From: Plumapathes pennacea
Taxonomy: Eukaryota > Cnidaria > Anthozoa > Antipatharia > Myriopathidae
Assembly: GCA_964036295.1 (NCBI GenBank)
Contig: OZ038464.1
Coordinates: 15,926,443 to 15,990,442 of the forward strand
Direction: 5' to 3'
Length of the DNA: 64,000 bases
The notes below the pieces were generated by a model that saw only the letters and a list, made by a program, of their open reading frames with translations, did no database searches and was not told where the DNA came from. The first letter of the stretch is position 1, and every line of letters begins with the position of its first letter. Below are positions 15,448-50,906 of this stretch, in pieces. The translations under genes and the position numbers were made by a program.

Positions 15448-16083
15448 ATGTCAAGTCTGGCTGTTTCCCTTAGAAGTTCTCCTGAAAAGACCAACGGTGC
15501 AAAGTTAAGCCGACTTATAATAGACGGTGGGAGGACAGCACTTCAGAAAGTGTTTGACAATATCCACCCCCCAGGGACATTGCAAGCGGCCCTCAACAGC
15601 CAGCACAGCACTCTTCTCGCACTCCATAAGAAGAGGATATTGAACGGAACACAGTGGAAACTTCTGTTTCCGCCAAGTGGAGCAGCACCTCAATCCACTG
15701 AATTTGACATAACATTGCTGTTTGTCCTTCTCCGAAACGTTTGTAGACTTAGTACCCCAGCATCTGGATGGGACAGCAAGCCGCCTTTGACTGATACATC
15801 ACGGGAAGCTAATTTGGCGCGGATTAAATGGTTCAGAAACGAGGTTTATGGCCATGTAACATCAACGGGAATCGATGCATGGTCATTCAACGCGCACTGG
15901 GCTGAGTTGTCAGACGCTCTAGTTCAACTCGGTCTTGACCGCACGGAGATCAATCGTTTAAAGAATTCGCCTCTGGATGAAGACTATTACCTAAACCTGT
16001 TGTCGGAATGGAAGATCCAGGAGGACGACATCAAAACGGAGCTTGAGAGCGTGAACAGTAAACTTGATGTTTTACTGTCTAAG
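15448..16083 (+). CDS. Gene B exon 1: DZIP3-type HEPN domain
   Basis: The exon encodes residues 1-212, a HEPN domain of the DZIP3/hRUL138 kind. Visible hallmarks are the N-terminal KLSRLIIDGGRTALQKVFD, then LHPPGT-like NIHPPGTLQ, FDITLLFVLLRNVC, and the catalytic-type motif RNEVYGH (R130 to H136, an Rx4-6H HEPN motif). HEPN proteins with this motif are usually metal-independent RNases. The ATG at 15448 opens the only long frame, and an earlier ATG at 15434 is out of frame. The donor TCTAAG|GTTGGT at 16083 leaves phase 0, matching the acceptor of the kinase exon. Without splicing, the frame reads to TAG at 16150-16152, giving a 234-residue HEPN-only protein. Confidence 0.85.
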
Positions 16084-16597
16084 GTTGGTATAGAAGTTTG
16101 GTCTCATAAACACCAAAAGTATTCATACGTACGAATTGTAAAACAAAATTAGAATATTGTCTGTAGGTGGATGAGAGCGTTGTCACATAATGCCATTACA
16201 TGCACTGGCAATTATGATAATAACAGCACATTGTGAGTTTCAATAATTAATGTTAACCTCAGGTCAAGCTTCTACTTAACGAGTCCATATTTTTCAGCCC
16301 AATGTCATGCCTCCCGTCATGTTTCATTTCAAGTCATGTTTCATTCCAAATTTTGTCACCAACTTATTGTTGCGTCATGGCAAATAAAATATTATCAGAG
16401 CACAGCGTAGTTACTCCGGAACTGTGTTTTTGGAAGAATGGAAACAAGTTCCATAGTTTGAAGCATGCGGTAATCAACCCAGTATTTGATCCAGGATCAG
16501 GCCCTTCTTCATTTTTGTGTTCTGTTTTAAGAAACAGTTCCTGTCGCAGATTTCTACTGTAACTCATTTGACATGATACTGGAAACTTCGATTTATT
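16084..16597. other. Intron 1 of gene B, proximal part
   Basis: After the read-through stop at 16152 no coding signal is seen up to the inserted 1.77-kb element. Confidence 0.5.
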
Positions 16598-18364
16598 GCT
16601 CGCGGGGGCCTGGGGCCCACGAGAGCTTAAAAATGGGCATTTTTATTTTTTTCCTTTTTGTGGGTCGAGAATCAGCACACGGTGATTGGTTCATATTATC
16701 ACGTGCTGGGCGATGACGTAATTGACTTCGCTAAACAACTCGAGATGTGGCCAGTGAATTGCTCGTTACTTGTGTGTAAAAGTTAACTGCATCCCATCCA
16801 AACTCAACACCATTTGGCTCTGTGGAATAGGCACGGATAAACTGGATTTTCGGGAACGATTTTGGCTCGCGTTCACCGCGGAAGCTTTGAGAATAGTCGT
16901 AAACAAATATTTGATGGTACCGCTGTCGCCGATAAATATTTAGTCCCGACGAAACTTTCTGTGGCGACACGAAATACTTTTGGGAAGATAACAGGGCGAA
17001 AGCAGAAACCAAAGCTACGGTGAGCTTTAGCCGTAAAACAATGACGCTTTATGCTTTACTCTGTACATGACATCTGTTGCCTCATAAAATTCTTCTGCGT
17101 ATCGTACATTGCCTGTTGAAGTGTTTCTTTCATTCGATCATGTAGCCTTTGTTTCGCAATGGTCAGTGAATACCAGAAATGAAAAATACACCGAAATAAT
17201 TCTGAGGATTGAGTTTGCAGTCACAAATGGACTGAACACACTGTGAACAAAAGCGCAATAATATTGTAAACATCTCTCGTGTGACATTCCTCGCTTTCAA
17301 TTTTATATTTGTTACAGAGCACGAATACTCGAAAGCCTGATAGAAAAAAACGTATTGAGTTAATAAAAGAAAACACATAAGTAGTGAAGCGAAAAAGTAA
17401 ACTGCATCCCATTCAAATTCAACGCCATTTGGCTCTGTGGAATAGGCACGGATAAACTGGATTTTAGGAAAAGATTTTGGCTCGCGTTCACCGCAGAAGC
17501 TTTGAGAATAGCCGTAAACAAATGTTTGATGGTACTTCTGGGGTATTGCAAATATCTCTGTCGCCGATAAGTATTTAGTCCCGACGAAACTTTCTGTGGC
17601 GACACGAAATACTTTTGGGAAGATAACAGGGCGAAAACAGAAACCAAAGCTACGGTGAGCTTTAGCCGTAAAACAATGACGCTTTAAGGTTTACGCTGTA
17701 CATGACATCTGTTGCCTCATAAAATTCTTCTGCGTATCGTACATTGCCTGTTGAAGTGTTTCTTTCATTCGATCATGTAGTCTTTGTTTCGCAATGTTCA
17801 TTAAATACCAGAAATGAAAAATACACCGAAATAATTCTAAGGATTGAGTTTGCAGTCACAAATGGACTGAACACACTGTGAACAAAAGCGCAATAATATT
17901 GTAAACATCTCTCGTGTGACATTCCTCGCTTTCAATTTTATATTTGTTACAGAGCACGAATACTCGAAAGCCTGATAGAAGAAACGTATTGAGTTAACAA
18001 AAGAAAACACATAAGTAGTGAAGCGAAGGCTGGATTAATCGTGGCCTCTGACTAGAAATATGAGTCAAGGTCAAACTGTCATATAATCGATTGTGCATAA
18101 AAAGATATGTCACGCATTCTCAAGATGCAGGGTCGCTCAACCTTTAAGAAGCAAGTGTATGAGTGTTGTAATAATAATTTTTAGTTTAATCAAGGTGTCA
18201 AAAGAGCAAGGTGTCAAAAGCCAAGTTCTCTATACTGTGTGATATTTTTATGGTGAGAAATTGGAAGTCTCTCTTGGGAGTTCCGCTCTTGTCCCCTACT
18301 TTCCATTTTATATTCTGGTCTCGACCCAACTCACGCCGCGAGCTCACTGGCAAGGCCAGTCTAG
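16598..18364. mobile_element. 1.77-kb non-autonomous element, copy 1
   Basis: This element starts GCTCGCGGGGGCCTGGGGCC and ends AAGGCCAGTCTAG. It is flanked by TTATT (16593-16597 and 18365-18369). A copy with the same ends, very high identity and the same internal structure lies at 31088-32861, so movement was recent. Inside are two tandem versions of a segment of roughly 620 bp (around 16790-17390 and 17400-18020). No protein domain is found; frames on the minus strand repeat with the segment and look non-coding. The tips are not inverted repeats, so a retroposed origin is as likely as a DNA transposon. Confidence 0.75.
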
Positions 18365-18917
18365 TTATTGCCAAGTATTGACTGAGTGTTTTTCTCGCAT
18401 AACGTTCAGAATGATGATGGTTGTTCGCCGTTTAGTCAATTCTAATTCCATCTTAAAGTCACTTTTACCTATTCTCTTGCAGTCATGATCTATAGGAAGA
18501 CGCCAAGTTTTAGAAAAATACTCTGCAGGCTATGCCTTTCTTGCACTGATTAAAAGTAGTGTAACAGTTTCGTTTGGAAAGTTATATTACAAATGAGTTC
18601 CCGTTTTCAGGCAAGGGGTGTTATGAAAGGTTTTGTCGACACGCTGGAGGAAACGTTTTTAGTGCTTTTCGATGAATCTGTTGGCGTATCGTAGGGTGTA
18701 GTTTGCTTTCGAGCGCTACTACGGTACGACCATAATGGCAATATATTATTCGTAGATCTTTTAATGTCACAAGTACAGACAGGCTTTACCAGAAATCCGA
18801 CCAAAAAAATAACACTTTAATTTAATTCCGGTTTCATCGACAAAAGCCCCTGTTGAAACTTTGCACTAAGTGGGTCCGCGCTATTTCACCACGACTAATG
18901 CATTCCTTTTATTTTAG

Positions 18918-19727
18918 AATGAAGGATTTGTCGGTGATATCGAATGTCAAGAAGATGAAGCACACGTGATTGGCAAGGGAAGCAAAGGCACTCTAGTGTA
19001 TTCAGGAAAGTTTTTACCTTCTGGCCAGAGTGTAGCTGTCAAACGGATGTTCGCTGGAATGTTTGACCTGAGAGAAGCCAATCGACTGAGACAGCTGCAG
19101 CACCCAAACATAATCCAGTGCTTTGCAGTTGAGAAGAGGGGTGACTTCATCTATTTGGCACTAGAGCTCTGCAAAAAAACACTGAGAAGTTGCATGGATG
19201 AGAACGACTTTATGAGGAAGGACAGTGGCGTTGAGAGGCTTAAGTGCCTGAAAGAAATCACCGCAGCGGTAGAATACCTGCATAAGCGTAAAATCTGTCA
19301 TCGTGACATCAAACCGGACAACATACTGTTGTCAGTCTCGGATCCCAAGCGGTTTGTTTTAGCCGATTTCAACACTTCAAAAGAAGTAAGTTCAACTGAG
19401 TCAGCGTCAACGCAATTTGGTTGTGCCGTTGGAACCCCCGGGTACATAGCGCCTGAGATGTACAGGCCTGGTGAAACAGTAACTGTCAAGACTGATATAT
19501 TTTCACTTGGATGTGTGTTCTACTTTACTCTTACAGACAAAAGTCATCCCTTTGGTTCAGTACAACATTTGAAACGATGCCAAGCAAATATCAATAGTGG
19601 TCAGGATCCAACTCTTAAGGAAGCTGAATTCCTTGAGCACACCTGGATCAGATACATCATTGAAGCAATGGTTTTGATTCATCCTGATAAGCGGCCAAAC
19701 GCTACAGATGTCATGGAAGCTCTCGAG
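18918..19727 (+). CDS. Gene B exon 2: IRE1-like protein kinase domain
   Basis: This single 810-bp exon (residues 213-482) holds a full kinase fold, phase 0 at both ends (acceptor TTTTAG before 18918, donor CTCGAG|GTATT). Motifs in order are the glycine loop VIGKGSKG, the VAVK lysine (K254), the helix-C region FDLREANRLRQLQHPNIIQC, the catalytic loop CHRDIKPDN (D342), the metal loop DFN (D362, with Asn364 where DFG has Gly), GTPGYIAPE, and DIFSLGCVFYF followed by SHPFGS. The last of these and the HPDKRPNA segment are typical of the IRE1/RNase L kinase group. No KEN nuclease domain follows; the nuclease-like domain is the HEPN on the N-terminal side. Catalytic residues apart from the DFG glycine are intact, so it may be active or act as a nucleotide-binding switch. 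Confidence 0.88.
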
Positions 19728-19896
19728 GTATTACAATATTTTTACTTCCTTGTTTTAGTTTCTTAAACTATTATATTGTGCAGTTGTCTGGAGTATATTT
19801 TAGGACTAAGAGTTTTGATTAGCCTAGTGAAATTAATGTACGTGTAAATTGATCTTAAGCATTTCATCTTTTCCTGTCTCTTATTCTTCATACCAG

Positions 19897-19972
19897 AAAC
19901 CAGGAGATAGTTTCAAGATGCTCAGCAAAAATAGATTACAAACAGTCGCAAAGGAAAGAAGCACTACGACAG
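19897..19972 (+). CDS. Gene B exon 3: linker
   Basis: A 76-bp exon entered in phase 0 after ATACCAG and left in phase 1 (ACGACAG|GTAGCG). It encodes a basic linker, KPGDSFKMLSKNRLQTVAKE and so on. This exon makes the phase change that lets all later exons be phase-1 symmetric. Confidence 0.7.
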
Positions 19973-22049: not shown

Positions 22050-22665
22050 GATTCAGTAGCATGTTGCAAGCTTGACTCCGTGTCGAGTTACTTGTTTGTC
22101 GATTATCGTCCGAGATTCCGAATCGGCAAATCACAGGAAAAACAAGGTCAGCAATGACAGATTAACTTCCCACCGTCGTCATTGAGGTCAGCCGTGCTCG
22201 ATCTTGAGGCAGTCTCTGTTAACACAATTGTACAGTATGTCGATATGTGTCTGTACCACTCTTTCCTTCGACATCAGATCAGATTCAAGGGTCGCCATGT
22301 TGAACATGCAACACGCCTAAAACAATTCCGAAAACCGTCATTTTACATCCAAAACCAATTGAAGGGAAAAATGAATAAATGAGTTTGGGGTAAAACGTGC
22401 GAAACTGTGTTTGAACGGAATGCGACATGCGGAACCAGTTTATATTGAAATGCACTGTCAGGCGTTATTGCTTCTGCCTTTCGCAGTCTAATCTAATAGC
22501 AGGCTTGATCTTTTGTCTTTTCTAGAGTTTATGCGACAGGACGGTGCAGTGATCGATGCATAGTAGCCTGTTGAAAGCTTGATACCTTGTTGAATTAGAT
22601 TGTCTATTTTCACCCCAGAAACAGGAGTCGGCAAATCACAAGAAAATCAGGGCTGACTACAGCTA
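22050..22665 (+). repeat. Old direct duplication inside an intron
   Basis: About 22052-22160 and 22560-22665 share a diverged sequence running from GTTGCAAGCTTGA (second copy GTTGAAAGCTTGA) to TCGGCAAATCACA and AAAATCAGG-like text, about 510 bp apart. No coding signal. Confidence 0.45.
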
Positions 22666-22937
22666 CAGAGAAATTTCCAGTTATCATTTGGGGTAGTTCA
22701 TTCGCCGTCATTTCTCATCTGGTTAAATCTTGCTATAGAACCGGGACTATTTCAGTCCAGACGTAGTCTTGAAATTTTCACACACCAAAAATAACTCCAG
22801 ATAACAAGTGGCAACAAGTGTGTGATACGAGTAACGGCCAAACTCTAATAATTGATGTCAGGAAAGTGTGACACGAAATATTTGTTCTTTTTCATCTTTT
22901 GTAATAATACTCCTTTTTCTTAATCTTTAATTTTCAG

Positions 22938-23147
22938 AAAAGCCGTCCGCTCATCAGTTCATCGAAACTAATGCTAAAGGTTGGAGCACATTTCATCACG
23001 CATGCGCTCGAGGGAATGTAAAGTTGATTAAGATGCATCTGCAGAAAGGAGTGGACATCAATCTTACCACTAATGACGGCGAAACCCCACTGTTGTGTGC
23101 AGCACTAAATGGCCATGTTGATGCAATCAGCCTTCTCCTTTCCGAAG
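22938..23147 (+). CDS. Gene B exon 6: first ankyrin pair
   Basis: A 210-bp exon (70 codons), phase 1 at both ends (TTTTCAG before, CCGAAG|GTACCG after). It carries two ankyrin repeats: GWSTFHHACARGNVKLIKMH and GETPLLCAALNGHVDAISLL. It differs strongly from the cassette exons and does not take part in their recent amplification, so it is probably the ancestral N-terminal cap of the stack. Confidence 0.85.
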
Positions 23148-25398
23148 GTACCGTGTGTTTTTCGTCCTTTTTGGCAGCACACTGTAAAATAATGTACAAG
23201 ATGTGTGGCAGTTTAGTAGCAGTAGTGAAGCAAATTGTGGAACCACTCGAGGAAATGTAGCAGAACGAATGTAAAGTCATGGATCGAGTTATGGAAATGA
23301 AAATAATGTTAGTGACATGCATTTGTGAATTCAAAGTGCATAGTTATCAAGTCGAAGGTAACTAGCTGGCATTTCAGCAGTTTGTATTCCTCGCGTCTGT
23401 CGCACCTTTCCTACATCAATTGAGCTCGCCAAACGATACACTCTGTTTTGTTTGTGTGCCGTTGTCTGTCGCTGCTACAAGTTGTTGATATTGACTTTAT
23501 CTAAATGAGTTTAATTACCGCTGTCCGGCTAAATTTGTGTATCCATCTCGTCTTGCCCTTTTACGTGATTTTAGATAGTTGGACGGGACAGAGGAGACAG
23601 GTGTATTAAAGGGGCAAGGAGATAATGACTGTGATAATCTGCAGTTATTCTATTTAGAACCGTGTTCCGGGATTCCAGCTCCTGTTATAACCTCTGCAGG
23701 TTGGTCAATTATGACACACCACATCAGCCACACGGCGTAACACTGCGCGCAGTGTTGGAAATTAAAGTAGAAGTACCTTCTACTTCCGCAACATTGCACG
23801 CAACAATTACACAGTGTTTCCATCCAATTGCGTGCAGCATTGCGCGGGACAACTGCGTCGTGTGTCCCATAGTGTTAAAACTTCATAAAGTATCAACTTT
23901 TTACGAGATGGCAGCATGAATATAAGATTGCTGTTGATAAATGTTTGCAAAAGTCCCCTCGCAGCAAGTTGCAGCAAAAAAAAATTAAATGTATTAGTAA
24001 AATATGAGAAAGTGTTCGCTGTACCACCCGCCTGGATTTCAGTTAAAAAGGGCGTTGTAATTTTTGAAGTATTTCTGAAAAAAGAAAAAAATCTTTTGGC
24101 TTCGTTGAACCCTCAATTTGTTGGGCCCTGTTAAAATCTGGAAACTCGTAATAAAGTGGAAGCCATTTCGTTTCATGACCGAGTTGTTGGTCTAGTAGCT
24201 GTACAAGAGTGGATGTTATCTATACAGTACGTTACTCGATTCACTGATTTCCTTTAGTGCTACAATCTCGCAATATGCCAACTGGAGGTTTTGCAGCCGG
24301 CTCTAGCAACACTCGAGAATGTGAATTGAGCTTTTAACTAAAACAAAAAATGTTTTCGCAAAAAATGGCGCAAACGTATGTTAGCGACGTTGGATTTGAT
24401 GCACTTTAACAATCCAAGTGTAGATACGGTCTCACACCTTTAATTTAAGTTGTAGCCATTCGACGACCAACTGCCGTGAGAAATAGAGGTCGGAATTAAA
24501 ACTGCAGAGTTGCGACAGTCGAAGTACAGAAGCAATTTCCACAACCTTCGGGCCTACAGGGCTTTCGAAATGTTTCTTTCAGTCGATTATAGTTGACGAA
24601 GACTTCTTTTGTAATACAACGGTTAGTGCATACAATTGAACAAGACGAGAGTACCGCTATAGAGCAGTAAACAAGCGTCTGGCGTTCTTTATTCTAACTT
24701 TCATTAAATTTCTGACAGCGCTGGCAGAATTCGCATAGAAGAATCAAAATTTAACAACAAAGAAACCCTGTTTCTGAATAAGGATGGCCGCTTTGGTTAA
24801 AAAAATTCACCGTTTGTGAAAGTCAAAAATTGCCATATCAACTGTGCATCAAAGAAGATGAATCACGAAACTTTCTTCCAGTTGGCGTAGAGGGACATCC
24901 TCGCTCTTGTCTTCAGAAATTCTTACGATATGAAGGATTCTGTTTCATCAAACCGTAAATTATAATATGCTTGTGGTATGCTGCTGTGTAAAACTCTAAA
25001 CTAGTTACAACAATTACAGTAGCTTTCTTCATTGCGACTTTTGGAGTAAGGCTTTTAAATCATCCTATTTTGGACCCACGCAAAAAAGCGCTTAAACTAG
25101 GGTAAACCCGATCTGCTTCTGCTCAGCTCTGCTTCTGTTTCTGGCAAAGTGCAACAAAATATAATGCGAATGAGCGAGCGTTCAGCAGCAACACTGCTTT
25201 TCAAAAGGGGGTTTTACCTTCGAGCAAAATAATCAAAATCAAAATAATATTTTAATACATCACTATAAAAATATGGTAAATAGCACATTTTGGTTAAAGA
25301 TACACGTATTTTAAATATTCTGATGAGAGAGTTATTGCAGATTGGTTTTTCAGATTACAGATTTCCACAGGATAGTAGGTGAAAGGGCTTCTTTAAGA
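23148..25398. other. Intron of gene B, no gene seen
   Basis: About 2.2 kb with no coding signal. Bases about 23735-23870 hold imperfect inverted GCGCA/TTGC-rich arms (GGCGTAACACTGCGCGCAG and its rough complement), perhaps a decayed MITE. Confidence 0.45.
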
Positions 25399-27651: not shown

Positions 27652-27849
27652 GTGCTGATCTTCATGCTGTTGGGTTGGTCGGTCGGAACGCCCTTCACCA
27701 TGCGTGTCAGTCTGGTGATGTGGCGACGATACAATTGTTTTTGGGCAAAGGATTTAAGATTGAGTGCGTTGACAAGGAAGATGCCACCCCATTGCTGCTT
27801 GCAGCGCTAGAAGGCCATGCGAACACTGTAACTTTCCTGCTGTCAAAAG
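27652..27849 (+). CDS. Gene B ankyrin cassette exon 1
   Basis: A 198-bp phase-1 symmetric exon, two ankyrin repeats. Variant residues relative to the cassette consensus: G in place of D at LFLGKG and E in place of K at AALEGHA. The second hairpin reads VDKEDATP and the first helix NALHHAC. Confidence 0.87.
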
Positions 27850-28958: not shown

Positions 28959-29156
28959 GTGCTGATCTTCATGCTGTTGGGTTGGTCGGTCGGAACGCCC
29001 TTCACCATGCGTGTCAGTCTGGTGATGTGGCGACGATACAATTGTTTTTGGACAAAGGATTTAACATTGAGTGCGTTGACAAGGAAGATGCCACCCCATT
29101 GCTGCTTGCAGCGCTAAAAGGCCATGCGAATACTGTAACTTTCCTGCTGTCAAAAG
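28959..29156 (+). CDS. Gene B ankyrin cassette exon 2
   Basis: A 198-bp phase-1 symmetric exon, two ankyrin repeats. Private change K to N at KGFNIEC; otherwise NALHHAC and VDKEDATP. Splice sites are identical to the other cassettes. Confidence 0.87.
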
Positions 29157-36151: not shown

Positions 36152-36623
36152 GTAATGGGTCCATCTAAGCGAGTGTGCAAGTGAAAAGGGTTATTATCGT
36201 TCTAGGTCAGTTGGATAGAAATTTGTTGTTTTGGAGGTCCAAAATACCGGTAAACCGTGGATTAGATCACTTCCAATATTGTGACGTTTTTGAGCAGATT
36301 TTTGGCGATTTCTGGATTAAAAAACATGGTGTTTTCGTTATTAAAAAGCCCAGTGGTGTCAACATCCTAGTGTAACGTAGTGTCACTTATGCAGAGCCGG
36401 GACTGAACTTGGGATATTAAGATATTCGACGATAATATATAGTTCGGCGACATAGACCAAAAGAGACTGAGGAGCGTGACGCCTCGACTTGTGACCAAGA
36501 CTTTCACATTTCGAGGCTTAGCGAAGAGAAATGAGCTAATAACACTTTTTGATTTCCGTTAACGACTACTTTTGAACTTGGCAGTTCCGCTCTTGTCCCT
36601 AATTTCCATTTTAGTATATTCTA

Positions 36624-36886: not shown

Positions 36887-37363
36887 TCTGAAGCGGTTAA
36901 TGTGCTATTTCTCTGTGAATATCTGAGGTATCTGCATAGAATTTGCAGAACGTACGCATGGTCCGACTACCGTTTGCAAAACAGTTAGAAATGTGTTACA
37001 ACGGCAGTTTTCGAGATTTGGCAAGGAATTTCCTTTGTAAATTGAACGTTTTTAAACGCACATAATTGTCACAGCTGGGTATCCGTCTTATTAAACCTTA
37101 CTTTACTCACTGTCTATTGATGTGAAAGTTCAGTGATGCACGTCATGTCATTTTCTGGTTTTCGGTAACAATTCTGGAACAGTTGATGTAGTCTTTACGT
37201 GTTCGGCCCTCACTTTAGGCCTAAAATGGGCTGTGAGGTATACGTGCGTAAGAGCAGGCGTGACTCTGTTTACGCGCGATAGCGTGTTAACGCCTAAACA
37301 ATTTTAGGGAAAGAAGTCACACTCAGCACTAATGCACCTTTTTTACCTATAATTTGTGTGTGC

Positions 37364-37370
37364 TATATAA
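37364..37370 (+). promoter_or_regulatory. TATA box in each array core (type copy)
   Basis: GCTATATAAACC is a strong TATA-type core promoter, 110 bp upstream of a small ORF. A CG-containing inverted repeat (GCGTAAGAG and CTCTGTTTACGC) lies about 120 bp further upstream. Present in all six cores. Confidence 0.45.
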
Positions 37371-37473
37371 ACCTGGGGTTTTCACCTGCTTTCAAACATT
37401 CTCGCTGAGTTTATACATCGTTTAGGCAGTTCAATCGTTATCTGAGTGCATCAGAATATCACAGAAACGAGAC

Positions 37474-37599
37474 ATGGAAGACATACAACCGTATTTATCA
37501 GAACTAGACGGTTGGGATGACGGTCAAAATTTCCCATCTGAACCAAGCACAACATTGCCCATTGGACAGGCATCTGAAGTGAATGAGACACATAAATAA
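37474..37599 (+). CDS. Small ORF (41 codons) in each array core, type copy
   Basis: ATG at 37474 in a good initiation context (G at -3, G at +4) gives an acidic 41-residue peptide starting MEDIQPYLSELDGWDDG and ending NETHK before TAA. Copies start at 39093, 40702, 42311, 43920 and 45529, with no change seen. It might be exon 1 of a captured gene: a donor-like GAA|GTGAAT lies near its end and an acceptor-like AATTTTAG about 90 bp on, but the sequence after it stops within 20 codons. No family recognised. Confidence 0.35.
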   Translation: MEDIQPYLSELDGWDDGQNFPSEPSTTLPIGQASEVNETHK

Positions 37600-37790
37600 T
37601 GTGATTGACGAGCGAGAAACTGTGATACTGTCTGTGCGATGACGAGTATTCAATTTTAGCTATCGGATTCCCGCAGAGGAGCAGAAAGACATTCCACCGT
37701 ACCCGAAATGCTTCTCTAAGCTTATTCTCGGCCGAAATTGAGTGAACGATCATCACAATGTCCAGCAGATTCATATCCATGAAGATTTCA

Positions 37791-37891
37791 ACGGTCTACC
37801 ACGGTCTACCACGGTCTACCATGTAAACAAAAGATTATTTACATAATTCCTTTGTTCTGATGGTAGACCGTGGTAGACCGTGGTAGACCGT
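37791..37891. repeat. ACGGTCTACC inverted repeat cluster in each core (type copy)
   Basis: Three head-to-tail ACGGTCTACC decamers (37791-37820) face three GGTAGACCGT decamers (37862-37891), with a nested ATGTAAA/TTTACAT pair between them. Cores 2-6 have only two decamers on the left and three on the right, which accounts for the 10-bp longer first unit. It should form a strong cruciform or hairpin. Confidence 0.85.
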
Positions 37892-38242
37892 TGGTTTTCC
37901 GTCAAAACAGGTTTTTGTTTTCGCCAATTAGCTTTAAAATAGTGAGAGTTCATTGAACAAAACGTAACATGCACGAAATAGCCTCCATAGTGTTTATTTC
38001 AGGCCGTATTTGTGGCAAACATACCATCAATTAATAACACACCGGAAGTAATATTGTACTAGTCTTATCCCGTCATTTCCGGAAATTTCAAATTTGATAC
38101 AGCTAATCGCCCCACCTCCAAAGAACCTTGAGACTTAGTTTTCCTAATAGAAGATAACACAGTGATGAATCATACCAAAAATCGCCTTTCAAAATTGAAA
38201 AAAGACGCTCTGAGCCAACATTTTCGACACATGACTTTCAGA

Positions 38243-41200
38243 CAATCAAATGCAAAAGTAGTTGAGACACTGTGCATATTTTTGAGCAATTTATCGGCTT
38301 TTAAGTTTTGTTCATTTCTGCCCCCCCTCCCCCCGTCTCAATGTTGTTCGGGCCTGAAATCTCACTGTACGATATTGGATACTCAACATTGAAACGGGGG
38401 AGGGGGGGAAGGAGGCTGTCAAACGCAATCCAGATAAGAGTGAGGGAATAGAAGAGAAAATTGGGTCTTTTTTTGCGAGTGTCTCAACCATTTTGCATTT
38501 GATTGTCTGAAGCGGTTAATGTGCTATTTCTCTGTGAATATCTGAGGTATCTGCATAGAATTTGCAGAACGTACGCATGGTCCGACTACCGTTTGCAAAA
38601 CAGTTAGAAATGTGTTACAACGGCAGTTTTCGAGATTTGGCAAGGAATTTCCTTTGTAAATTGAACGTTTTTAAACGCACATAATTGTCACAGCTGGGTA
38701 TCCGTCTTATTAAACCTTACTTTACTCACTGTCTATTGATGTGAAAGTTCAGTGATGCACGTCATGTCATTTTCTGGTTTTCGGTAACAATTCTGGAACA
38801 GTTGATGTAGTCTTTACGTGTTCGGCCCTCACTTTAGGCCTAAAATGGGCTGTGAGGTATACGTGCGTAAGAGCAGGCGTGACTCTGTTTACGCGCGATA
38901 GCGTGTTAACGCCTAAACAATTTTAGGGAAAGAAGTCACACTCAGCACTAATGCACCTTTTTTACCTATAATTTGTGTGTGCTATATAAACCTGGGGTTT
39001 TCACCTGCTTTCAAACATTCTCGCTGAGTTTATACATCGTTTAGGCAGTTCAATCGTTATCTGAGTGCATCAGAATATCACAGAAACGAGACATGGAAGA
39101 CATACAACCGTATTTATCAGAACTAGACGGTTGGGATGACGGTCAAAATTTCCCATCTGAACCAAGCACAACATTGCCCATTGGACAGGCATCTGAAGTG
39201 AATGAGACACATAAATAATGTGATTGACGAGCGAGAAACTGTGATACTGTCTGTGCGATGACGAGTATTCAATTTTAGCTATCGGATTCCCGCAGAGGAG
39301 CAGAAAGACATTCCACCGTACCCGAAATGCTTCTCTAAGCTTATTCTCGGCCGAAATTGAGTGAACGATCATCACAATGTCCAGCAGATTCATATCCATG
39401 AAGATTTCAACGGTCTACCACGGTCTACCATGTAAACAAAAGATTATTTACATAATTCCTTTGTTCTGATGGTAGACCGTGGTAGACCGTGGTAGACCGT
39501 TGGTTTTCCGTCAAAACAGGTTTTTGTTTTCGCCAATTAGCTTTAAAATAGTGAGAGTTCATTGAACAAAACGTAACATGCACGAAATAGCCTCCATAGT
39601 GTTTATTTCAGGCCGTATTTGTGGCAAACATACCATCAATTAATAACACACCGGAAGTAATATTGTACTAGTCTTATCCCGTCATTTCCGGAAATTTCAA
39701 ATTTGATACAGCTAATCGCCCCACCTCCAAAGAACCTTGAGACTTAGTTTTCCTAATAGAAGATAACACAGTGATGAATCATACCAAAAATCGCCTTTCA
39801 AAATTGAAAAAAGACGCTCTGAGCCAACATTTTCGACACATGACTTTCAGACAATCAAATGCAAAAGTAGTTGAGACACTGTGCATATTTTTGAGCAATT
39901 TATCGGCTTTTAAGTTTTGTTCATTTCTGCCCCCCCTCCCCCCGTCTCAATGTTGTTCGGGCCTGAAATCTCACTGTACGATATTGGATACTCAACATTG
40001 AAACGGGGGAGGGGGGGAAGGAGGCTGTCAAACGCAATCCAGATAAGAGTGAGGGAATAGAAGAGAAAATTGGGTCTTTTTTTGCGAGTGTCTCAACCAT
40101 TTTGCATTTGATTGTCTGAAGCGGTTAATGTGCTATTTCTCTGTGAATATCTGAGGTATCTGCATAGAATTTGCAGAACGTACGCATGGTCCGACTACCG
40201 TTTGCAAAACAGTTAGAAATGTGTTACAACGGCAGTTTTCGAGATTTGGCAAGGAATTTCCTTTGTAAATTGAACGTTTTTAAACGCACATAATTGTCAC
40301 AGCTGGGTATCCGTCTTATTAAACCTTACTTTACTCACTGTCTATTGATGTGAAAGTTCAGTGATGCACGTCATGTCATTTTCTGGTTTTCGGTAACAAT
40401 TCTGGAACAGTTGATGTAGTCTTTACGTGTTCGGCCCTCACTTTAGGCCTAAAATGGGCTGTGAGGTATACGTGCGTAAGAGCAGGCGTGACTCTGTTTA
40501 CGCGCGATAGCGTGTTAACGCCTAAACAATTTTAGGGAAAGAAGTCACACTCAGCACTAATGCACCTTTTTTACCTATAATTTGTGTGTGCTATATAAAC
40601 CTGGGGTTTTCACCTGCTTTCAAACATTCTCGCTGAGTTTATACATCGTTTAGGCAGTTCAATCGTTATCTGAGTGCATCAGAATATCACAGAAACGAGA
40701 CATGGAAGACATACAACCGTATTTATCAGAACTAGACGGTTGGGATGACGGTCAAAATTTCCCATCTGAACCAAGCACAACATTGCCCATTGGACAGGCA
40801 TCTGAAGTGAATGAGACACATAAATAATGTGATTGACGAGCGAGAAACTGTGATACTGTCTGTGCGATGACGAGTATTCAATTTTAGCTATCGGATTCCC
40901 GCAGAGGAGCAGAAAGACATTCCACCGTACCCGAAATGCTTCTCTAAGCTTATTCTCGGCCGAAATTGAGTGAACGATCATCACAATGTCCAGCAGATTC
41001 ATATCCATGAAGATTTCAACGGTCTACCACGGTCTACCATGTAAACAAAAGATTATTTACATAATTCCTTTGTTCTGATGGTAGACCGTGGTAGACCGTG
41101 GTAGACCGTTGGTTTTCCGTCAAAACAGGTTTTTGTTTTCGCCAATTAGCTTTAAAATAGTGAGAGTTCATTGAACAAAACGTAACATGCACGAAATAGC

Positions 41201-44200
41201 CTCCATAGTGTTTATTTCAGGCCGTATTTGTGGCAAACATACCATCAATTAATAACACACCGGAAGTAATATTGTACTAGTCTTATCCCGTCATTTCCGG
41301 AAATTTCAAATTTGATACAGCTAATCGCCCCACCTCCAAAGAACCTTGAGACTTAGTTTTCCTAATAGAAGATAACACAGTGATGAATCATACCAAAAAT
41401 CGCCTTTCAAAATTGAAAAAAGACGCTCTGAGCGAACATTTTCGACACATGACTTTCAGACAATCAAATGCAAAAGTAGTTGAGACACTGTGCATATTTT
41501 TGAGCAATTTATCGGCTTTTAAGTTTTGTTCATTTCTGCCCCCCCTCCCCCCGTCTCAATGTTGTTCGGGCCTGAAATCTCACTGTACGATATTGGATAC
41601 TCAACATTGAAACGGGGGAGGGGGGGAAGGAGGCTGTCAAACGCAATCCAGATAAGAGTGAGGGAATAGAAGAGAAAATTGGGTCTTTTTTTGCGAGTGT
41701 CTCAACCATTTTGCATTTGATTGTCTGAAGCGGTTAATGTGCTATTTCTCTGTGAATATCTGAGGTATCTGCATAGAATTTGCAGAACGTACGCATGGTC
41801 CGACTACCGTTTGCAAAACAGTTAGAAATGTGTTACAACGGCAGTTTTCGAGATTTGGCAAGGAATTTCCTTTGTAAATTGAACGTTTTTAAACGCACAT
41901 AATTGTCACAGCTGGGTATCCGTCTTATTAAACCTTACTTTACTCACTGTCTATTGATGTGAAAGTTCAGTGATGCACGTCATGTCATTTTCTGGTTTTC
42001 GGTAACAATTCTGGAACAGTTGATGTAGTCTTTACGTGTTCGGCCCTCACTTTAGGCCTAAAATGGGCTGTGAGGTATACGTGCGTAAGAGCAGGCGTGA
42101 CTCTGTTTACGCGCGATAGCGTGTTAACGCCTAAACAATTTTAGGGAAAGAAGTCACACTCAGCACTAATGCACCTTTTTTACCTATAATTTGTGTGTGC
42201 TATATAAACCTGGGGTTTTCACCTGCTTTCAAACATTCTCGCTGAGTTTATACATCGTTTAGGCAGTTCAATCGTTATCTGAGTGCATCAGAATATCACA
42301 GAAACGAGACATGGAAGACATACAACCGTATTTATCAGAACTAGACGGTTGGGATGACGGTCAAAATTTCCCATCTGAACCAAGCACAACATTGCCCATT
42401 GGACAGGCATCTGAAGTGAATGAGACACATAAATAATGTGATTGACGAGCGAGAAACTGTGATACTGTCTGTGCGATGACGAGTATTCAATTTTAGCTAT
42501 CGGATTCCCGCAGAGGAGCAGAAAGACATTCCACCGTACCCGAAATGCTTCTCTAAGCTTATTCTCGGCCGAAATTGAGTGAACGATCATCACAATGTCC
42601 AGCAGATTCATATCCATGAAGATTTCAACGGTCTACCACGGTCTACCATGTAAACAAAAGATTATTTACATAATTCCTTTGTTCTGATGGTAGACCGTGG
42701 TAGACCGTGGTAGACCGTTGGTTTTCCGTCAAAACAGGTTTTTGTTTTCGCCAATTAGCTTTAAAATAGTGAGAGTTCATTGAACAAAACGTAACATGCA
42801 CGAAATAGCCTCCATAGTGTTTATTTCAGGCCGTATTTGTGGCAAACATACCATCAATTAATAACACACCGGAAGTAATATTGTACTAGTCTTATCCCGT
42901 CATTTCCGGAAATTTCAAATTTGATACAGCTAATCGCCCCACCTCCAAAGAACCTTGAGACTTAGTTTTCCTAATAGAAGATAACACAGTGATGAATCAT
43001 ACCAAAAATCGCCTTTCAAAATTGAAAAAAGACGCTCTGAGCCAACATTTTCGACACATGACTTTCAGACAATCAAATGCAAAAGTAGTTGAGACACTGT
43101 GCATATTTTTGAGCAATTTATCGGCTTTTAAGTTTTGTTCATTTCTGCCCCCCCTCCCCCCGTCTCAATGTTGTTCGGGCCTGAAATCTCACTGTACGAT
43201 ATTGGATACTCAACATTGAAACGGGGGAGGGGGGGAAGGAGGCTGTCAAACGCAATCCAGATAAGAGTGAGGGAATAGAAGAGAAAATTGGGTCTTTTTT
43301 TGCGAGTGTCTCAACCATTTTGCATTTGATTGTCTGAAGCGGTTAATGTGCTATTTCTCTGTGAATATCTGAGGTATCTGCATAGAATTTGCAGAACGTA
43401 CGCATGGTCCGACTACCGTTTGCAAAACAGTTAGAAATGTGTTACAACGGCAGTTTTCGAGATTTGGCAAGGAATTTCCTTTGTAAATTGAACGTTTTTA
43501 AACGCACATAATTGTCACAGCTGGGTATCCGTCTTATTAAACCTTACTTTACTCACTGTCTATTGATGTGAAAGTTCAGTGATGCACGTCATGTCATTTT
43601 CTGGTTTTCGGTAACAATTCTGGAACAGTTGATGTAGTCTTTACGTGTTCGGCCCTCACTTTAGGCCTAAAATGGGCTGTGAGGTATACGTGCGTAAGAG
43701 CAGGCGTGACTCTGTTTACGCGCGATAGCGTGTTAACGCCTAAACAATTTTAGGGAAAGAAGTCACACTCAGCACTAATGCACCTTTTTTACCTATAATT
43801 TGTGTGTGCTATATAAACCTGGGGTTTTCACCTGCTTTCAAACATTCTCGCTGAGTTTATACATCGTTTAGGCAGTTCAATCGTTATCTGAGTGCATCAG
43901 AATATCACAGAAACGAGACATGGAAGACATACAACCGTATTTATCAGAACTAGACGGTTGGGATGACGGTCAAAATTTCCCATCTGAACCAAGCACAACA
44001 TTGCCCATTGGACAGGCATCTGAAGTGAATGAGACACATAAATAATGTGATTGACGAGCGAGAAACTGTGATACTGTCTGTGCGATGACGAGTATTCAAT
44101 TTTAGCTATCGGATTCCCGCAGAGGAGCAGAAAGACATTCCACCGTACCCGAAATGCTTCTCTAAGCTTATTCTCGGCCGAAATTGAGTGAACGATCATC

Positions 44201-46287
44201 ACAATGTCCAGCAGATTCATATCCATGAAGATTTCAACGGTCTACCACGGTCTACCATGTAAACAAAAGATTATTTACATAATTCCTTTGTTCTGATGGT
44301 AGACCGTGGTAGACCGTGGTAGACCGTTGGTTTTCCGTCAAAACAGGTTTTTGTTTTCGCCAATTAGCTTTAAAATAGTGAGAGTTCATTGAACAAAACG
44401 TAACATGCACGAAATAGCCTCCATAGTGTTTATTTCAGGCCGTATTTGTGGCAAACATACCATCAATTAATAACACACCGGAAGTAATATTGTACTAGTC
44501 TTATCCCGTCATTTCCGGAAATTTCAAATTTGATACAGCTAATCGCCCCACCTCCAAAGAACCTTGAGACTTAGTTTTCCTAATAGAAGATAACACAGTG
44601 ATGAATCATACCAAAAATCGCCTTTCAAAATTGAAAAAAGACGCTCTGAGCCAACATTTTCGACACATGACTTTCAGACAATCAAATGCAAAAGTAGTTG
44701 AGACACTGTGCATATTTTTGAGCAATTTATCGGCTTTTAAGTTTTGTTCATTTCTGCCCCCCCTCCCCCCGTCTCAATGTTGTTCGGGCCTGAAATCTCA
44801 CTGTACGATATTGGATACTCAACATTGAAACGGGGGAGGGGGGGAAGGAGGCTGTCAAACGCAATCCAGATAAGAGTGAGGGAATAGAAGAGAAAATTGG
44901 GTCTTTTTTTGCGAGTGTCTCAACCATTTTGCATTTGATTGTCTGAAGCGGTTAATGTGCTATTTCTCTGTGAATATCTGAGGTATCTGCATAGAATTTG
45001 CAGAACGTACGCATGGTCCGACTACCGTTTGCAAAACAGTTAGAAATGTGTTACAACGGCAGTTTTCGAGATTTGGCAAGGAATTTCCTTTGTAAATTGA
45101 ACGTTTTTAAACGCACATAATTGTCACAGCTGGGTATCCGTCTTATTAAACCTTACTTTACTCACTGTCTATTGATGTGAAAGTTCAGTGATGCACGTCA
45201 TGTCATTTTCTGGTTTTCGGTAACAATTCTGGAACAGTTGATGTAGTCTTTACGTGTTCGGCCCTCACTTTAGGCCTAAAATGGGCTGTGAGGTATACGT
45301 GCGTAAGAGCAGGCGTGACTCTGTTTACGCGCGATAGCGTGTTAACGCCTAAACAATTTTAGGGAAAGAAGTCACACTCAGCACTAATGCACCTTTTTTA
45401 CCTATAATTTGTGTGTGCTATATAAACCTGGGGTTTTCACCTGCTTTCAAACATTCTCGCTGAGTTTATACATCGTTTAGGCAGTTCAATCGTTATCTGA
45501 GTGCATCAGAATATCACAGAAACGAGACATGGAAGACATACAACCGTATTTATCAGAACTAGACGGTTGGGATGACGGTCAAAATTTCCCATCTGAACCA
45601 AGCACAACATTGCCCATTGGACAGGCATCTGAAGTGAATGAGACACATAAATAATGTGATTGACGAGCGAGAAACTGTGATACTGTCTGTGCGATGACGA
45701 GTATTCAATTTTAGCTATCGGATTCCCGCAGAGGAGCAGAAAGACATTCCACCGTACCCGAAATGCTTCTCTAAGCTTATTCTCGGCCGAAATTGAGTGA
45801 ACGATCATCACAATGTCCAGCAGATTCATATCCATGAAGATTTCAACGGTCTACCACGGTCTACCATGTAAACAAAAGATTATTTACATAATTCCTTTGT
45901 TCTGATGGTAGACCGTGGTAGACCGTGGTAGACCGTTGGTTTTCCGTCAAAACAGGTTTTTGTTTTCGCCAATTAGCTTTAAAATAGTGAGAGTTCATTG
46001 AACAAAACGTAACATGCACGAAATAGCCTCCATAGTGTTTATTTCAGGCCGTATTTGTGGCAAACATACCATCAATTAATAACACACCGGAAGTAATATT
46101 GTACTAGTCTTATCCCGTCATTTCCGGAAATTTCAAATTTGATACAGCTAATCGCCCCACCTCCAAAGAACCTTGAGACTTAGTTTTCCTAATAGAAGAT
46201 AACACAGTGATGAATCATACCAAAAATCGCCTTTCAAAATTGAAAAAAGACGCTCTGAGCGAACATTTTCGACACATGACTTTCAGA
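38243..46287. repeat. Array units 2-6 with a three-unit higher-order pattern
   Basis: At one position near the end of each core (for example 38215, GAGCCAAC against GAGCGAAC) the six cores read C, C, G, C, C, G. This suggests that a block of three units (4827 bp) was duplicated as a whole. The last module also has a private change (AATGTGGTT for AATGTTGTT, near 46389). Confidence 0.6.
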
Positions 46288-49180
46288 CAATCAAATGCAA
46301 AAGTAGTTGAGACACTGTGCATATTTTTGAGCAATTTATCGGCTTTTAAGTTTTGTTCATTTCTGCCCCCCCTCCCCCCGTCTCAATGTGGTTCGGGCCT
46401 GAAATCTCACTGTACGATATTGGATACTCAACATTGAAACGGGGGAGGGGGGGAAGGAGGCTGTCAAACGCAATCCAGATAAGAGTGAGGGAATAGAAGA
46501 GAAAATTGGGTCTTTTTTTGCGAGTGTCTCAACCATTTTGCATTTGATTGTAGCCTCGACCCAACTCACGCCGCGAGCTCACTGGCAATGTCAATCTAGT
46601 CATTTCTCGTATACAGTGACCAATGCGAAACAAAGGCTGCATGATCGAATGGAAAAACATTTCAACAGGCAATGTACGATAAGCAGAAGCATTTTATGAG
46701 GCAACATATGTCATGCACAATGTAAGGCATAAATCGCCATTGTTTTACCTCTAAAGCTCATCGTAGCTTTGGCTTCCGTTTTCGGCCTGTTATCTTCCCA
46801 GAAGTATTTCGTGTTGTCACAGAAATTTTCGTCGGGACTAACTAATTAGCGGCGACAGAGTTATTTGCAAGCCCGTAGCGGTATCCATCAAATATCGAAT
46901 CCACCAAATTTCCGCGGTGAACTCAGGAACGGAAGCCAAAATCATTCCCTAAAATCCGGTTTATCCGTGCATGTTCCACAGACCCAAACGGTGTTGAGTT
47001 TGGGTGGGATGCAGTTAACTTAACACACAGGCAAACGAACAATGCAATAGCCCACATCCCTATGGAGGGTGATCCCCGCCAAAATTAAACACGGCATTAT
47101 TCAATGCCAAAGTTTCACTATGCTATCTTTCTTTTCGATTGCGTTATGACTGTTGTTTGTTCTGGGACTTTTGTCCTCTTTATGAAGTTGATGAAGTCTG
47201 TAGTATCTTTTAGATACGACTTCTGTGTTTTGGCTATTGGCTGAAGTAGTCTGTCGACAAAAGACGACAGTTTTTCTGTAGGGCCTTCGTAGCCGGAAAT
47301 GAGGGGTGGTCTAATTCCACTGCGTATCTGCGTGTCCGCGTATCCACTTCCACATATACTTCAAAAACGTAGGGTGAGGGGTGGTCTAACTCCACTGCGT
47401 ATATCCACTTCCACATATAGTTCAACAATTTAGGGGGAGGGATGGTCTAACTCCAATGTATTTCTCGTTCTACTGAGGAGGGTGGTCTAGCTTGACTGCG
47501 TATCCGCGTATCCACCGTTTTCTAGGGGTGCTCCAAAAAATGCGGGGTATTCTGTAGTTACTCCACTACAAAAAACAGATTGCCGCTGCTTCGCCAAAAT
47601 GAAGCCTAGCCGACAATCCAAAATTGGCATCTGGACTAATTCAGGCATGCTCCTTTTAGTGCTGGAGTCAAGAAGGTACAATCTGTTATTTTGGAAGGTG
47701 TTTGACCGAAATTAGAAGAAAAGAAGGCAAGAAAAATAAAGGGAGCTCATGGATCCGCCATGTGCAAAAACTGACTCGGCTATAATATCTTTTGCATATA
47801 AACGAACGACAAAAGTTCCTCTCCCGGAAGCCCGCGTGTCTCTATTCATTGTACTAATGACGCCACAAGCGCACTGGCCACTGGCCTGTCTTGTTAACCT
47901 TTCGATTACGCTCACCGCCCTCGTATAACTGTTTTCCAGCCGATCAAGTGTTTCGAAAGAACTGACAGTCAGATTTCAGCAACTTGTGGACTTCCTGTAC
48001 TCGATAGATATAAATATAACTTAAACAAGTTTTGTCGCGTGAAAACAAGACAGATGCTGGGATTCAAGTTTGGTGTGGCAAGTGTCCGCACGCACCATAA
48101 GAATTGTTGAATAAGCAATCTCTGGACTAGAGCGAGACTCCCAAGAGTGATCTTCTTGAATTTTCTCTTTCAATTTCTCACCCGAAAAAATATTATACAG
48201 TATAGGGAACTTGGCTTTTGATTTAATTACTCAAATGAACCTGATTAAACTATAAATTATAATTACAACACTCGTACATTTGCGGCAAAAGGATAAGAGA
48301 ATCTACATTTTGAGTTTAGGAGTATGCGTGACTTATCTCATTTTCATGCATGTTTGACTTCGAACATTTGTTTCTAATCACAGGCCACGATTAATCTAGC
48401 CTGCGCTTCATTACTTACCTGTTTTTCGTCCTCTAAATTGCGTTTCTTCTACCAGGTTTTCTAAATTTCCAGTCGGCCTGTTTCATTTCAGAGCTATTAT
48501 CACCGCGGTTTTGACGAATTCACGGTTGTGTTTGACGAGCGTATGCCAGCGTATGAAAAACCCAGCCGGGAGCGACTTCAGCTTGTCGAAATGGTATCGT
48601 TTGATTATGTTTGCTTTCCTTCGCTTAGTTTTAACCAGCTGGACGAAGAAAAATGCGAAAGTGAATATAAATGAACAAAAACCGCAAGAGCGCAAGTATA
48701 TGTTAACAAAAATCTCACGTTAGAAAAGAAAGGCTTCCACGCCGCCTGCACGTGAACATTATCCAATCAAAATATAGTATTTTTGCTTACACGTCAATCA
48801 AGCTTCAAAATCCTAGAGGGGGGACTTCTCTTACCAATTGTCATGATACCTACGCTGTGGTTTTCGGGTGAAAACAAAATAATTATCCGATCATCCATAA
48901 ATGCTTTAAATGTGTGGTCTGTGGTTATTTCATTGGATATCTGGAATTCAAGGATCTTTAACGTTTTGTAAATCGGCGCATTAGTCTGCATCACTACATT
49001 CTTATGTCTTTGTTCCGTTCATTTTAAAAACTTCAAATTGGATTTAATTGTTTAGTTTTGATTCCAGTCGATTTAAGGTACTCACACTTACACCATCAAA
49101 GTCGGCTTTACGTCAAAATATTATTAATGGTGATGTTTGCCTTTCTTTAAAACCGCTTTTCTAAAACCGTTTCTCCAAAG

Positions 49181-49384
49181 ACGCTGATCTTCATGCTGAG
49201 GACAATGATGGATGGACTGCAGTACATTACGCAGCAAAGTCTGGTAATGTGGCAACACTCACTCTACTGCTGGATAAGGGATGCAACATCAGTGAGAAGA
49301 CCAATGATGGCAAAAATGCTCTGATGATTGCTACGATGAATAGAAGAGAAGCTGCGGCAGAATATCTGATGTCACGTGCTGAAG
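49181..49384 (+). CDS. Gene B last ankyrin exon
   Basis: A 204-bp exon, phase 1 at both ends (CTCCAAAG before, GAAG|GTAAAT after), two ankyrin repeats, with GWTAVHYAAKSGNVATLTLL in the first and NALMIATMNRREAAAEYL in the second. The changed second repeat suggests a C-terminal cap. Its first residue becomes D rather than G (AC in place of GC at the exon start). Confidence 0.87.
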
Positions 49385-50147
49385 GTAAATATATGATTCA
49401 TCATTTGTAAATTATGCGGACCGTTATTAGAGCAGGTGTTTGTGTGTGTGTGTGTGGTTTGTGCATGTTTGCGTACTTGCGCTCGATATTCAGCTTTGTC
49501 AGATTTTTTCCTTGTGAATTTGTTAGCCAGCTAAAGTATAATTTTGCCGTTTGTTGATTTTTACTGGCGGCTGTAATAAATATTTCACATTATTTTGACG
49601 TTTCATTTAAAATTCAGAATCACCCGGTTGAGTTTAAAACGCCATTTGGAAATTTTCACCTTGTCACGGTGCCTTGTTATTTTTGCTAAATAACTAGACT
49701 AGTCAGGTGCATATCCCTTTAATGAGAGAGCTGGTAGCCCTAAGTTGATCTCAGTCGAATAAAAGAAGTGGTCAAACCGTTCCGCCATGGTTTGGAGTTT
49801 TCTCGCAACAGCGCACTCTCGCTTTTTCTCGTCTCGTTCCTTGATAAGTAGAGTCCCACGATCAACTTTCCACCGGGTGGCCACTGTTCCAACGTTGTTG
49901 AAACTGAAACGTTGAAAGTCGAGTTTAAGAGTGAATTTGTTTGGTCAGATTTAGACGTTTTTCCGATTTTACAGAAACAGCTGGCCACCTAAATGAAACA
50001 ATTCTGTTAAAATTTTGCCAGGAAAACAAATCTTACAAAGAATGGCGTAACCCCAGCCATTCGTACCTATACCTTGAGCAAAGTTGCCAATGCGATCTAA
50101 GCTCGTGCTAATCTTTTTGCTGTCAAGAAAAACAATATTCATAGATG

Positions 50148-50555
50148 TGTAACAAGGCCTTGCAGGGAGGAATTAGCTTTTTGCGAGAGGTGCCTTGTCA
50201 CAGTCCGGGATCTTTTATATTGAGTAGATCAGGACTAGCAGTCAGGACTCGTTGTCGTTTATTTCGGTCCGAAGACCTTCACCAACCGACTCTCAGGCAA
50301 GACTCTCCGTCAGAGGAAAGGACGCGAATACTAATAATGCTCTTAACCAATAGTAGTTGGACAAGTCAAGTCCGGCTGGACAAAGAACAAAGTTTACAGG
50401 ATATTAATTCTAACACCTCTGGACCTGTCTACTCATTTCATATTCTGTTCACTTTGCATCACAAGCAGAGTTCACACCTAGATCTGAGCAGCTGGCAAAA
50501 CTAGATTTCAAAAGTTTCAAAGTGCCTTCCTTTTGCGTAAAACTGCTCCGTAACA
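50148..50555. mobile_element. Solo LTR-like insertion (TGTAACA...CGTAACA)
   Basis: A 408-bp insertion present only in copy 2. It begins TGTAACAAGG and ends CTCCGTAACA, so it has the TG...CA ends of an LTR, and GATG flanks both sides (50144-50147 and 50556-50559). Copy 1 has the intact empty site ATTCATAGATGAGAATG at 6616-6632. A TTTTATATTGAG stretch inside could be its TATA region. A 4-bp target duplication fits Gypsy-type LTR elements; no internal region remains. Confidence 0.75.
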
Positions 50556-50898
50556 GATGAGAATGAAGCTGTTTTATACTTGCCGTTGAGCCGGGTTGTC
50601 TTCCAATCGATGCGATTGCTGTAGCTATTTCACCTGTTTCTTTATACTGAACACTCTCCAGCGATTGTATAGGAACCCAAGTGAGAGTGCACAACAAAAT
50701 AGCGTCACTTCATGAAATTATAATACATGTCTGCATGTGTAGTTTAGATTGTCAATTAAATTTAATCACATGATGATAGTGTTATTGCAGTGAATCAAAA
50801 AAGTTGTGGATGAGAATGAAATCGTTTACTTGTCTTTACTGAAGTGTGCAAGTGTACAGTGCTCGTCTTCTAACTTTGTTTTTTCTTTTTTATAACAG

Positions 50899-50906
50899 CA
50901 GAGTGA
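50899..50906 (+). CDS. Candidate terminal coding exon, gene B
   Basis: Acceptor TTTTTATAACAG, then two codons and TGA (50904-50906) in phase 1, as in gene A. The 3'UTR would run to AATAAA at 51441. See the alternative at 51124. Confidence 0.35.

Follow-up and report, generated by a model that had tools for sequence, protein, structure and literature searches.

The window analyzed here, a stretch of 64,000 nucleotides from the antipatharian Plumapathes pennacea (contig OZ038464.1, positions 15926443–15990442, in a genome of 290 Mb and 24 contigs), carries on its plus strand a gene model, 15448–50906, that joins a HEPN domain, a protein kinase of the IRE1 type, and an array of ankyrin repeats. 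Contigs and loci of this genome are given below by C and L numbers, the window lying on C3. Exon 1 (15448–16083) contains the start codon and a DZIP3-type HEPN domain in 212 codons and ends in phase 0 at the donor AAG/GTTGGT. Exon 2 (18918–19727; 270 codons, phase 0 at both ends) encodes the kinase, with no KEN nuclease attached. Exon 3 (19897–19972), placed on the basis of its splice sites, is a linker of 76 nt (3n + 1) that is entered in phase 0 and left in phase 1. Eight ankyrin exons follow, each with two repeats: 22938–23147 (Ank_4, E 3.9e-17); six exons of 198 nt within units of about 1305 nt (27652–27849, 28959–29156, 30265–30462, 33344–33541, 34649–34846, and 35954–36151); and 49181–49384, which holds the last two repeats. 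This gives the sixteen repeats counted in an earlier note on this DNA. The proposed terminal exon, 8 nt with the stop codon (50899–50906), is weak; the tail of an upstream gene has the same bases. When spliced, the model has AG and GT at all internal boundaries and encodes 1043 amino acids, its sole stop being the end at 50906. Going from the N to the C terminus of the spliced protein, Pfam recognized HEPN_DZIP3, then Pkinase, then ankyrin repeats, and it found the same domains in the open frames 15448–16149 (HEPN_DZIP3), 18918–19763 (kinase), and 22931–23257 together with the repeated exons (ankyrin).

The frame of the kinase exon opens exactly at its acceptor, whose TAG is the preceding stop, and lacks a methionine ahead of the ATP loop. 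Nor does a methionine precede the first repeat in the first ankyrin exon. Both exons therefore require an exon upstream. The length of the linker exon supplies the phase shift needed to enter ankyrin exon 22938–23147, and the six 198-nt exons and exon 49181–49384 are all entered and left in phase 1. The linker peptide is 96% identical in two other copies of the gene (L013 and L019) and has weak matches in three more (L011, L012, and L017; 33–38% identity, E 0.98 or worse). Splice sites of the kinase exon recur in paralogues, and a copy on C2 has just 205 nt of intron between HEPN and kinase, with phase 0 on both sides. We conclude that order, phase, and paralogues support one gene spanning HEPN, kinase, and ankyrin parts, as the earlier note had proposed in its phase-consistent model. 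A conserved stretch at 22440–22600 was considered as an additional exon and rejected; its similarity is spread over many frames of both strands, and it is therefore taken as intron.

The gene is not alone. The 3′ part of a tandem paralogue occupies positions 1–6990 of the window on the plus strand (the end is approximate), with ankyrin exons near 65, 1372, and 5652, the last being the homologue of exon 49181–49384; its HEPN (C3:15891174) and kinase (C3:15894995) exons both lie outside the window. Across the genome, the HEPN profile gave 54 matches and a HEPN protein query 51, while a kinase query gave 126. Identity reached at least 54% in 39 of the kinase rows, which represent 38 exons because one is split; the kinase search scored 142 of 201 candidates, so these counts are lower bounds. 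Among the HEPN exons, 22 reach 55% identity or more, and for 21 of them a family kinase exon lies on the same strand, no more than 10 kb downstream, the unpaired exception being C11:14238059. Two further HEPN exons (36–37% identity) are also paired with a kinase, and HEPN followed by kinase is found at 23 of the 38 kinase exons. We fetched the regions of the 20 best HEPN matches besides that of the window, most other copies being known by position only. Sixteen of these regions contain a kinase exon, and in 11 of the 16 a homologue of the first ankyrin exon follows downstream on the same strand. In four of those 11 a longer query met a stop, yet the frame is open for 75–76 amino acids, past the exon end; one of the five without ankyrin, L015, was fetched to just 3 kb beyond the kinase. 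The gene thus belongs to a large family of dozens of copies, and the pairing of HEPN with kinase is beyond chance.

Profile searches bore out the first two domains as the earlier note had assigned them. Exon 1 matched HEPN_DZIP3 (PF18738) in Pfam at E 8.5e-51 and 172 bits (cut-off 27). Its predicted RNase motif, R130 N131 x4 H136, has the arginine and histidine named in that note and fits the pattern Rx4-6H, with a polar residue after the arginine. We aligned 21 HEPN rows, the window's and the 20 best other matches out of 54 in the genome: all 21 share R125, I126, R130, N131, and H136, and two exons of only 36% and 44% identity still keep R130, N131, and H136. According to PMC3710099, HEPN domains that are active have an RNase site made up of such arginine, polar, and histidine residues. 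From this motif conservation, the N-terminal domain is predicted to be an endoribonuclease. No significant relative of the HEPN domain was found among solved structures, and a search of viral_contigs and genome_contigs with the HEPN alignment revealed no relatives outside the coral's own genome. C-terminal to the HEPN domain lies a leucine-rich linker with repeat runs, short in the window and of varying length across several copies; judged by eye, it could pair as a coiled coil. The donor AAG/GTTGGT recurs in 10 of 18 fetched copies, and most of the others have other phase-0 donors (L022 gave none), the survey having covered phase-0 sites only.

The kinase exon matched Pkinase in Pfam at E 2.5e-40, and its best solved relatives are IRE1 structures (E about 1e-42). 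When a profile of 17 family kinase exons was compared with solved chains, IRE1 chains scored 163–190 bits and the best other kinase 102 bits; the 16 best sequences were all IRE1. RNase L chains, which are present in the Protein Data Bank, were absent among the 30 matches at E 1e-25 or better, and the family kinase therefore scores nearer to IRE1. In a tree of 15 rows, the family forms one clade (support 93/99; 90% of bootstrap trees), surrounded by IRE1, a kinase of an LRR-KEN protein, and kinases of ankyrin-KEN proteins, with two other kinases outside (88/88); this tree, which carries a long-branch warning, does not settle how the family and the KEN-linked groups branch relative to one another. 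These comparisons support the placement of the window kinase, by its sequence, in the IRE1/RNase L group. In an alignment of 17 of the 38 family exons, the three ATP-loop glycines, K254, E265, H340-R341-D342, N347, and D362 are kept in 17 of 17; K254 and D342 are the residues that the earlier note had described as intact. The DFG glycine is kept in none, being asparagine in 16 (N364 in the window) and serine in one. RNase L, too, has an altered DFG. The catalytic-loop lysine (residue 344) is replaced by asparagine in three of the 17, all of them copies on C10.

The nuclease of RNase L and IRE1 is a KEN domain, and the earlier note had supposed that the nuclease had moved to the N terminus. A genome-wide search for KEN (PF06479) gave 23 rows at 22 loci, 22 of the rows sitting 34–2432 bases behind another kind of kinase; around each of the 39 family kinase rows, no PF06479 row was detected over a distance of 100 kb. 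When HEPN (21 rows) and KEN (four rows) profiles, both built from this genome, were compared by hhalign, the probability was 0.4% and the two were not aligned, which, given that the KEN profile has only four rows, shows that they are not close rather than that they are unrelated. The candidate of a KEN domain relocated to the N terminus was rejected on this comparison and the genome-wide search. Judged by these profiles, the nuclease is replaced or re-invented, not relocated: since HEPN_DZIP3 and KEN do not align, no KEN is nearby, and kinase-KEN genes exist elsewhere, the IRE1-type kinase appears to bear, at the opposite end, a HEPN nuclease of another kind. Of the proposal that the gene carries the three modules of RNase L in another order, the kinds of module and their reversed order stand, and the identity of the nuclease, DZIP3-type HEPN instead of KEN, does not.

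The same genome also keeps genes of the conventional design. A multi-exon IRE1-like gene is found on C4. L032 and L035 (C10:15722113–15727965, plus strand) together form one open frame of 1951 amino acids that runs from ankyrin through kinase to KEN; it gave 31 matches to a home-made ankyrin hidden Markov model, built partly from its own repeats, and has about 30 repeats. Ankyrin, kinase, and KEN were also recognized by Pfam at L030 and L034. These large ankyrin-kinase-KEN genes make the two designs comparable in one animal. At L029 (C3:24269661–24270803, plus strand), leucine-rich repeats (LRR), kinase, and KEN share an open frame of 792 amino acids, and a hydrophobic stretch between LRR and kinase resembles, by eye, a transmembrane helix; L029 may be an LRR receptor-like relative of IRE1.

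The ankyrin repeats of the window are generic by sequence, and RNase L was absent from the best 60 of 141 solved chains matched by a shortened array query. Other repeats occur in the introns. Six units of about 1609 nt and part of a seventh, more than 99% identical in long alignments, occupy 36623–46551. No ankyrin exon was found in the plus-strand translation of one copy of this unit, nor by the ankyrin hidden Markov model, which is weak evidence since the model also failed to list the six 198-nt exons. These units are either a very recent amplification or an assembly effect. Two stretches of about 1.78 kb that are 98% identical, 16592–18366 and 31083–32863, lie in two introns and are probably copies of a mobile element. 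Pfam also detected GIY-YIG-like and reverse transcriptase fragments at 3823–4245 and 51471–52163, a pair known from Penelope-like elements.

In one member of the family, the array is replaced by a different C-terminal part. L014 (C10:14019100–14028900, minus strand) contains, on one strand, HEPN, an IRE1-like pseudokinase, a DEAD/ResIII helicase, RIG-I_C, Helicase_C, and RIG-I_C-RD. A scan for exons of length 3n + 1 revealed a 70-nt linker exon, with a shorter form nested in it, by which the phase-0 donor of the kinase is connected to a phase-1 helicase exon; this phase chain is the same as in the window, where the 76-nt exon leads into an ankyrin exon. Five of the six RIG-I_C-RD loci in the genome are preceded, at a distance of 6.8–10.6 kb, by a HEPN exon of the same strand, and in two of the five a kinase stands in between. 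One point counts against a broader reading: the locus behind L024 has a stop inside the RIG-I domain match, and L024 yielded no counterpart of the L014 helicase pieces, so that this other locus with kinase and RIG-I parts may be damaged or differently built. Hence L014 is the only convincing gene of HEPN, kinase, and RIG-I-like receptor (RLR) parts. On C10 we also observed, on the minus strand, HEPN and pseudokinase exons at L024 and L025, with an exon for an OTU-like cysteine protease about 1 kb behind the kinase, and, at the kinase-less L043 (C10:14092000–14096400, minus strand), a CARD exon directly after the HEPN exon in the order of domains, and RIG-I_C-RD about 9 kb behind HEPN on the same strand; L043 is possibly a HEPN-CARD-RLR gene. 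Order and strand are the grounds for taking L014, L024, L025, and L043 each as a single gene; for L014, phase is a further ground.

The arrangement of L014 suggests a portable module of sensor, kinase, and RNase. We propose tentatively, at somewhat below even odds, that a DZIP3-type HEPN domain and a KEN-less IRE1-type kinase make up a portable effector unit, to which various sensors (ankyrin repeats, a RIG-I-like double-stranded RNA helicase, perhaps OTU) have been attached at an intron boundary in phase 1. Such genes would be a second class of RNase L-like sensors that was assembled independently and that includes an RNA sensor coupled directly to an RNase, in an animal which also has genes of RNase L order.

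The window gene resembles RNase L (ankyrin, kinase-like, KEN) in uniting in one protein an ankyrin array, an IRE1-group kinase with nucleotide-binding residues, and the RNase motif of the HEPN superfamily. It differs from RNase L in its reversed order, in a nuclease that is of the DZIP3 family with no KEN after the kinase, and in a kinase that scores nearer to IRE1. With IRE1 (ERN1) it shares the kinase domain; unlike IRE1, it has HEPN_DZIP3 at the N terminus and no KEN, its kinase is encoded by a single exon whereas that of the IRE1-like gene on C4 is split over several, and the kinase is preceded by HEPN_DZIP3 and a short linker instead of a luminal sensor and transmembrane part (no transmembrane predictor was run). 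The HEPN domain is of the same family as that of DZIP3/hRUL138-type immune proteins, for which Table 1 of PMC3710099 lists as partners TPR, Zn-ribbon, RING, ankyrin, CARD, NACHT, DEATH, and LRR, but not protein kinase; the partners listed there for KEN are kinase and ankyrin. The same table records ankyrin partners and expansions in Nematostella for DZIP3-type HEPN. L014 resembles RIG-I-like receptors in its helicase and RIG-I C-terminal domain and differs from RIG-I in that HEPN and kinase take the position of CARD. NACHT-HEPN proteins and RIG-I-like receptors are described in anthozoans, with no mention of HEPN joined to a kinase or to a RIG-I helicase in the available part of that account (PMC8260672); in cnidarians and brachiopods, the partners of TRADD-N include HEPN and RLR-like domains (PMC8195603), and a NACHT-LRR-Death-HEPN protein is reported from Aplysia (PMC9334734). 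An OAS1 homologue is described in Nematostella, in an account whose available part does not mention HEPN (PMC13319465). We found no report of HEPN-kinase-ankyrin or HEPN-kinase-RLR proteins in the available parts of the open-licence literature in PubMed Central, although such predicted proteins may well appear in animal protein databases.

We consider it somewhat probable (about 0.6) that the window encodes a sensor-effector protein, with a HEPN endoribonuclease, an IRE1-type kinase as dimerization switch, and a ligand-binding ankyrin array, which would cleave RNA in defence or stress. The kinase and HEPN parts of IRE1 and RNase L form parallel back-to-back dimers (PMC10942766). In the mechanism that we infer, the protein is probably cytosolic, and its C-terminal array of about 16 ankyrin repeats would bind a ligand or partner. 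Binding would let two or more molecules pair via the kinase, as in IRE1 and RNase L, and via the linker behind HEPN. The kinase would bind ATP and act mainly as a nucleotide-gated dimerization switch, and two HEPN domains, on meeting, would form a composite active site of arginine, asparagine, and histidine that cuts RNA. The presence of HEPN and kinase before a RIG-I-like helicase in L014 would indirectly favour a ligand-activated RNase acting in defence. The window protein does not belong to the RNase L family, although it would work like RNase L if the prediction holds.

Several observations weigh against this reading. No HEPN was detected within 20 kb upstream of 15 of the 39 kinase rows, and two such rows, inspected over about 9.8 kb, revealed none. 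Stops interrupt two of the 38 kinase exons (TAA at C3:14040587 and TGA at C11:14221447), and the three C10 copies, with HRDIN and DCN, resemble pseudokinases. The HEPN ratio of nonsynonymous to synonymous substitution rates (dN/dS) is just moderately low, reaching 0.76 among the pairs used, and in the kinase pair of the window and L013, which is outside the range used, dN (0.008) exceeds dS (0.006). Two elements of the gene model are no more than plausible, namely the last exon of 8 nt and the 13-kb intron that leads to ankyrin exon 49181–49384. The array itself gives a mixed signal: 20 of 198 sites are variable in the six tandem ankyrin exons but only 47 of 1059 in the flanking sequence (p 0.003), which would fit a binding surface under change, but nonsynonymous and synonymous diversity are about equal in these exons (pN 0.038, pS 0.044), so that synonymous change is raised too and the variation may reflect gene conversion, not selection. 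Since, in addition, the ends of the aligned units vary as well and the copies are not independent, we regard the excess as suggestive only.

The strongest alternative, which we nevertheless consider unlikely, is that the kinase is the output and HEPN a pairing scaffold or RNA binder, the protein being an ankyrin-tethered serine/threonine kinase of immune signalling. Indeed, the window kinase retains K254, D342, HRDIK, and APE, and among pairs with dS of 0.05–1.5 the kinase is more constrained than HEPN (median dN/dS 0.20 over 76 of 136 pairs versus 0.35 over 85 of 210). However, a mere scaffold need not keep R130, N131, and H136, which are identical in all aligned HEPN exons, and the aligned kinases have lost the DFG glycine in 17 of 17 cases and the catalytic-loop lysine in three.

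That the model fuses a HEPN-kinase gene with an unrelated ankyrin gene is improbable. Introns of up to 13 kb, the unsure C-terminal end, and a linker exon that is weakly matched in the more distant copies speak for it; on the other side, the first ankyrin exon is entered in phase 1 and has no methionine, the 76-nt linker gives precisely that phase, the 11 fetched loci repeat the order on the same strand, and in L014 the same chain of phases leads to a different C-terminal part. Marginally less probable still is a decaying tandem array in which most copies, that of the window included, are non-functional. Tandem repeats of recent origin, present within the ankyrin part as well as in an intron, the two interrupted kinase exons, and the 15 kinase rows lacking a detected HEPN are compatible with decay, but all exons of the window are open and bounded by AG and GT, median dN/dS is well under 1 in both HEPN and kinase exons, and the predicted catalytic residues are identical in the aligned copies. 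An RNase L-type protein with its KEN nuclease relocated to the N terminus, which the placing of both nuclease types in the HEPN superfamily (PMC3710099) and the IRE1-group kinase might recommend, is hardly credible, since the N-terminal domain matches HEPN_DZIP3 and not KEN, the HEPN profile and the four-row KEN profile of this genome do not align, and KEN genes persist elsewhere in it.

If the sensor-effector reading is true, the plan of a sensor, a kinase switch, and a HEPN RNase would have been built at least twice, with different nuclease families and in opposite orders. It would raise the direct question of whether an IRE1-type kinase dimer can switch on an unrelated HEPN nuclease from the other side. 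L014 would then be a one-protein route from recognition of viral RNA to destruction of RNA, bypassing the second messenger on which the OAS/RNase L system relies.

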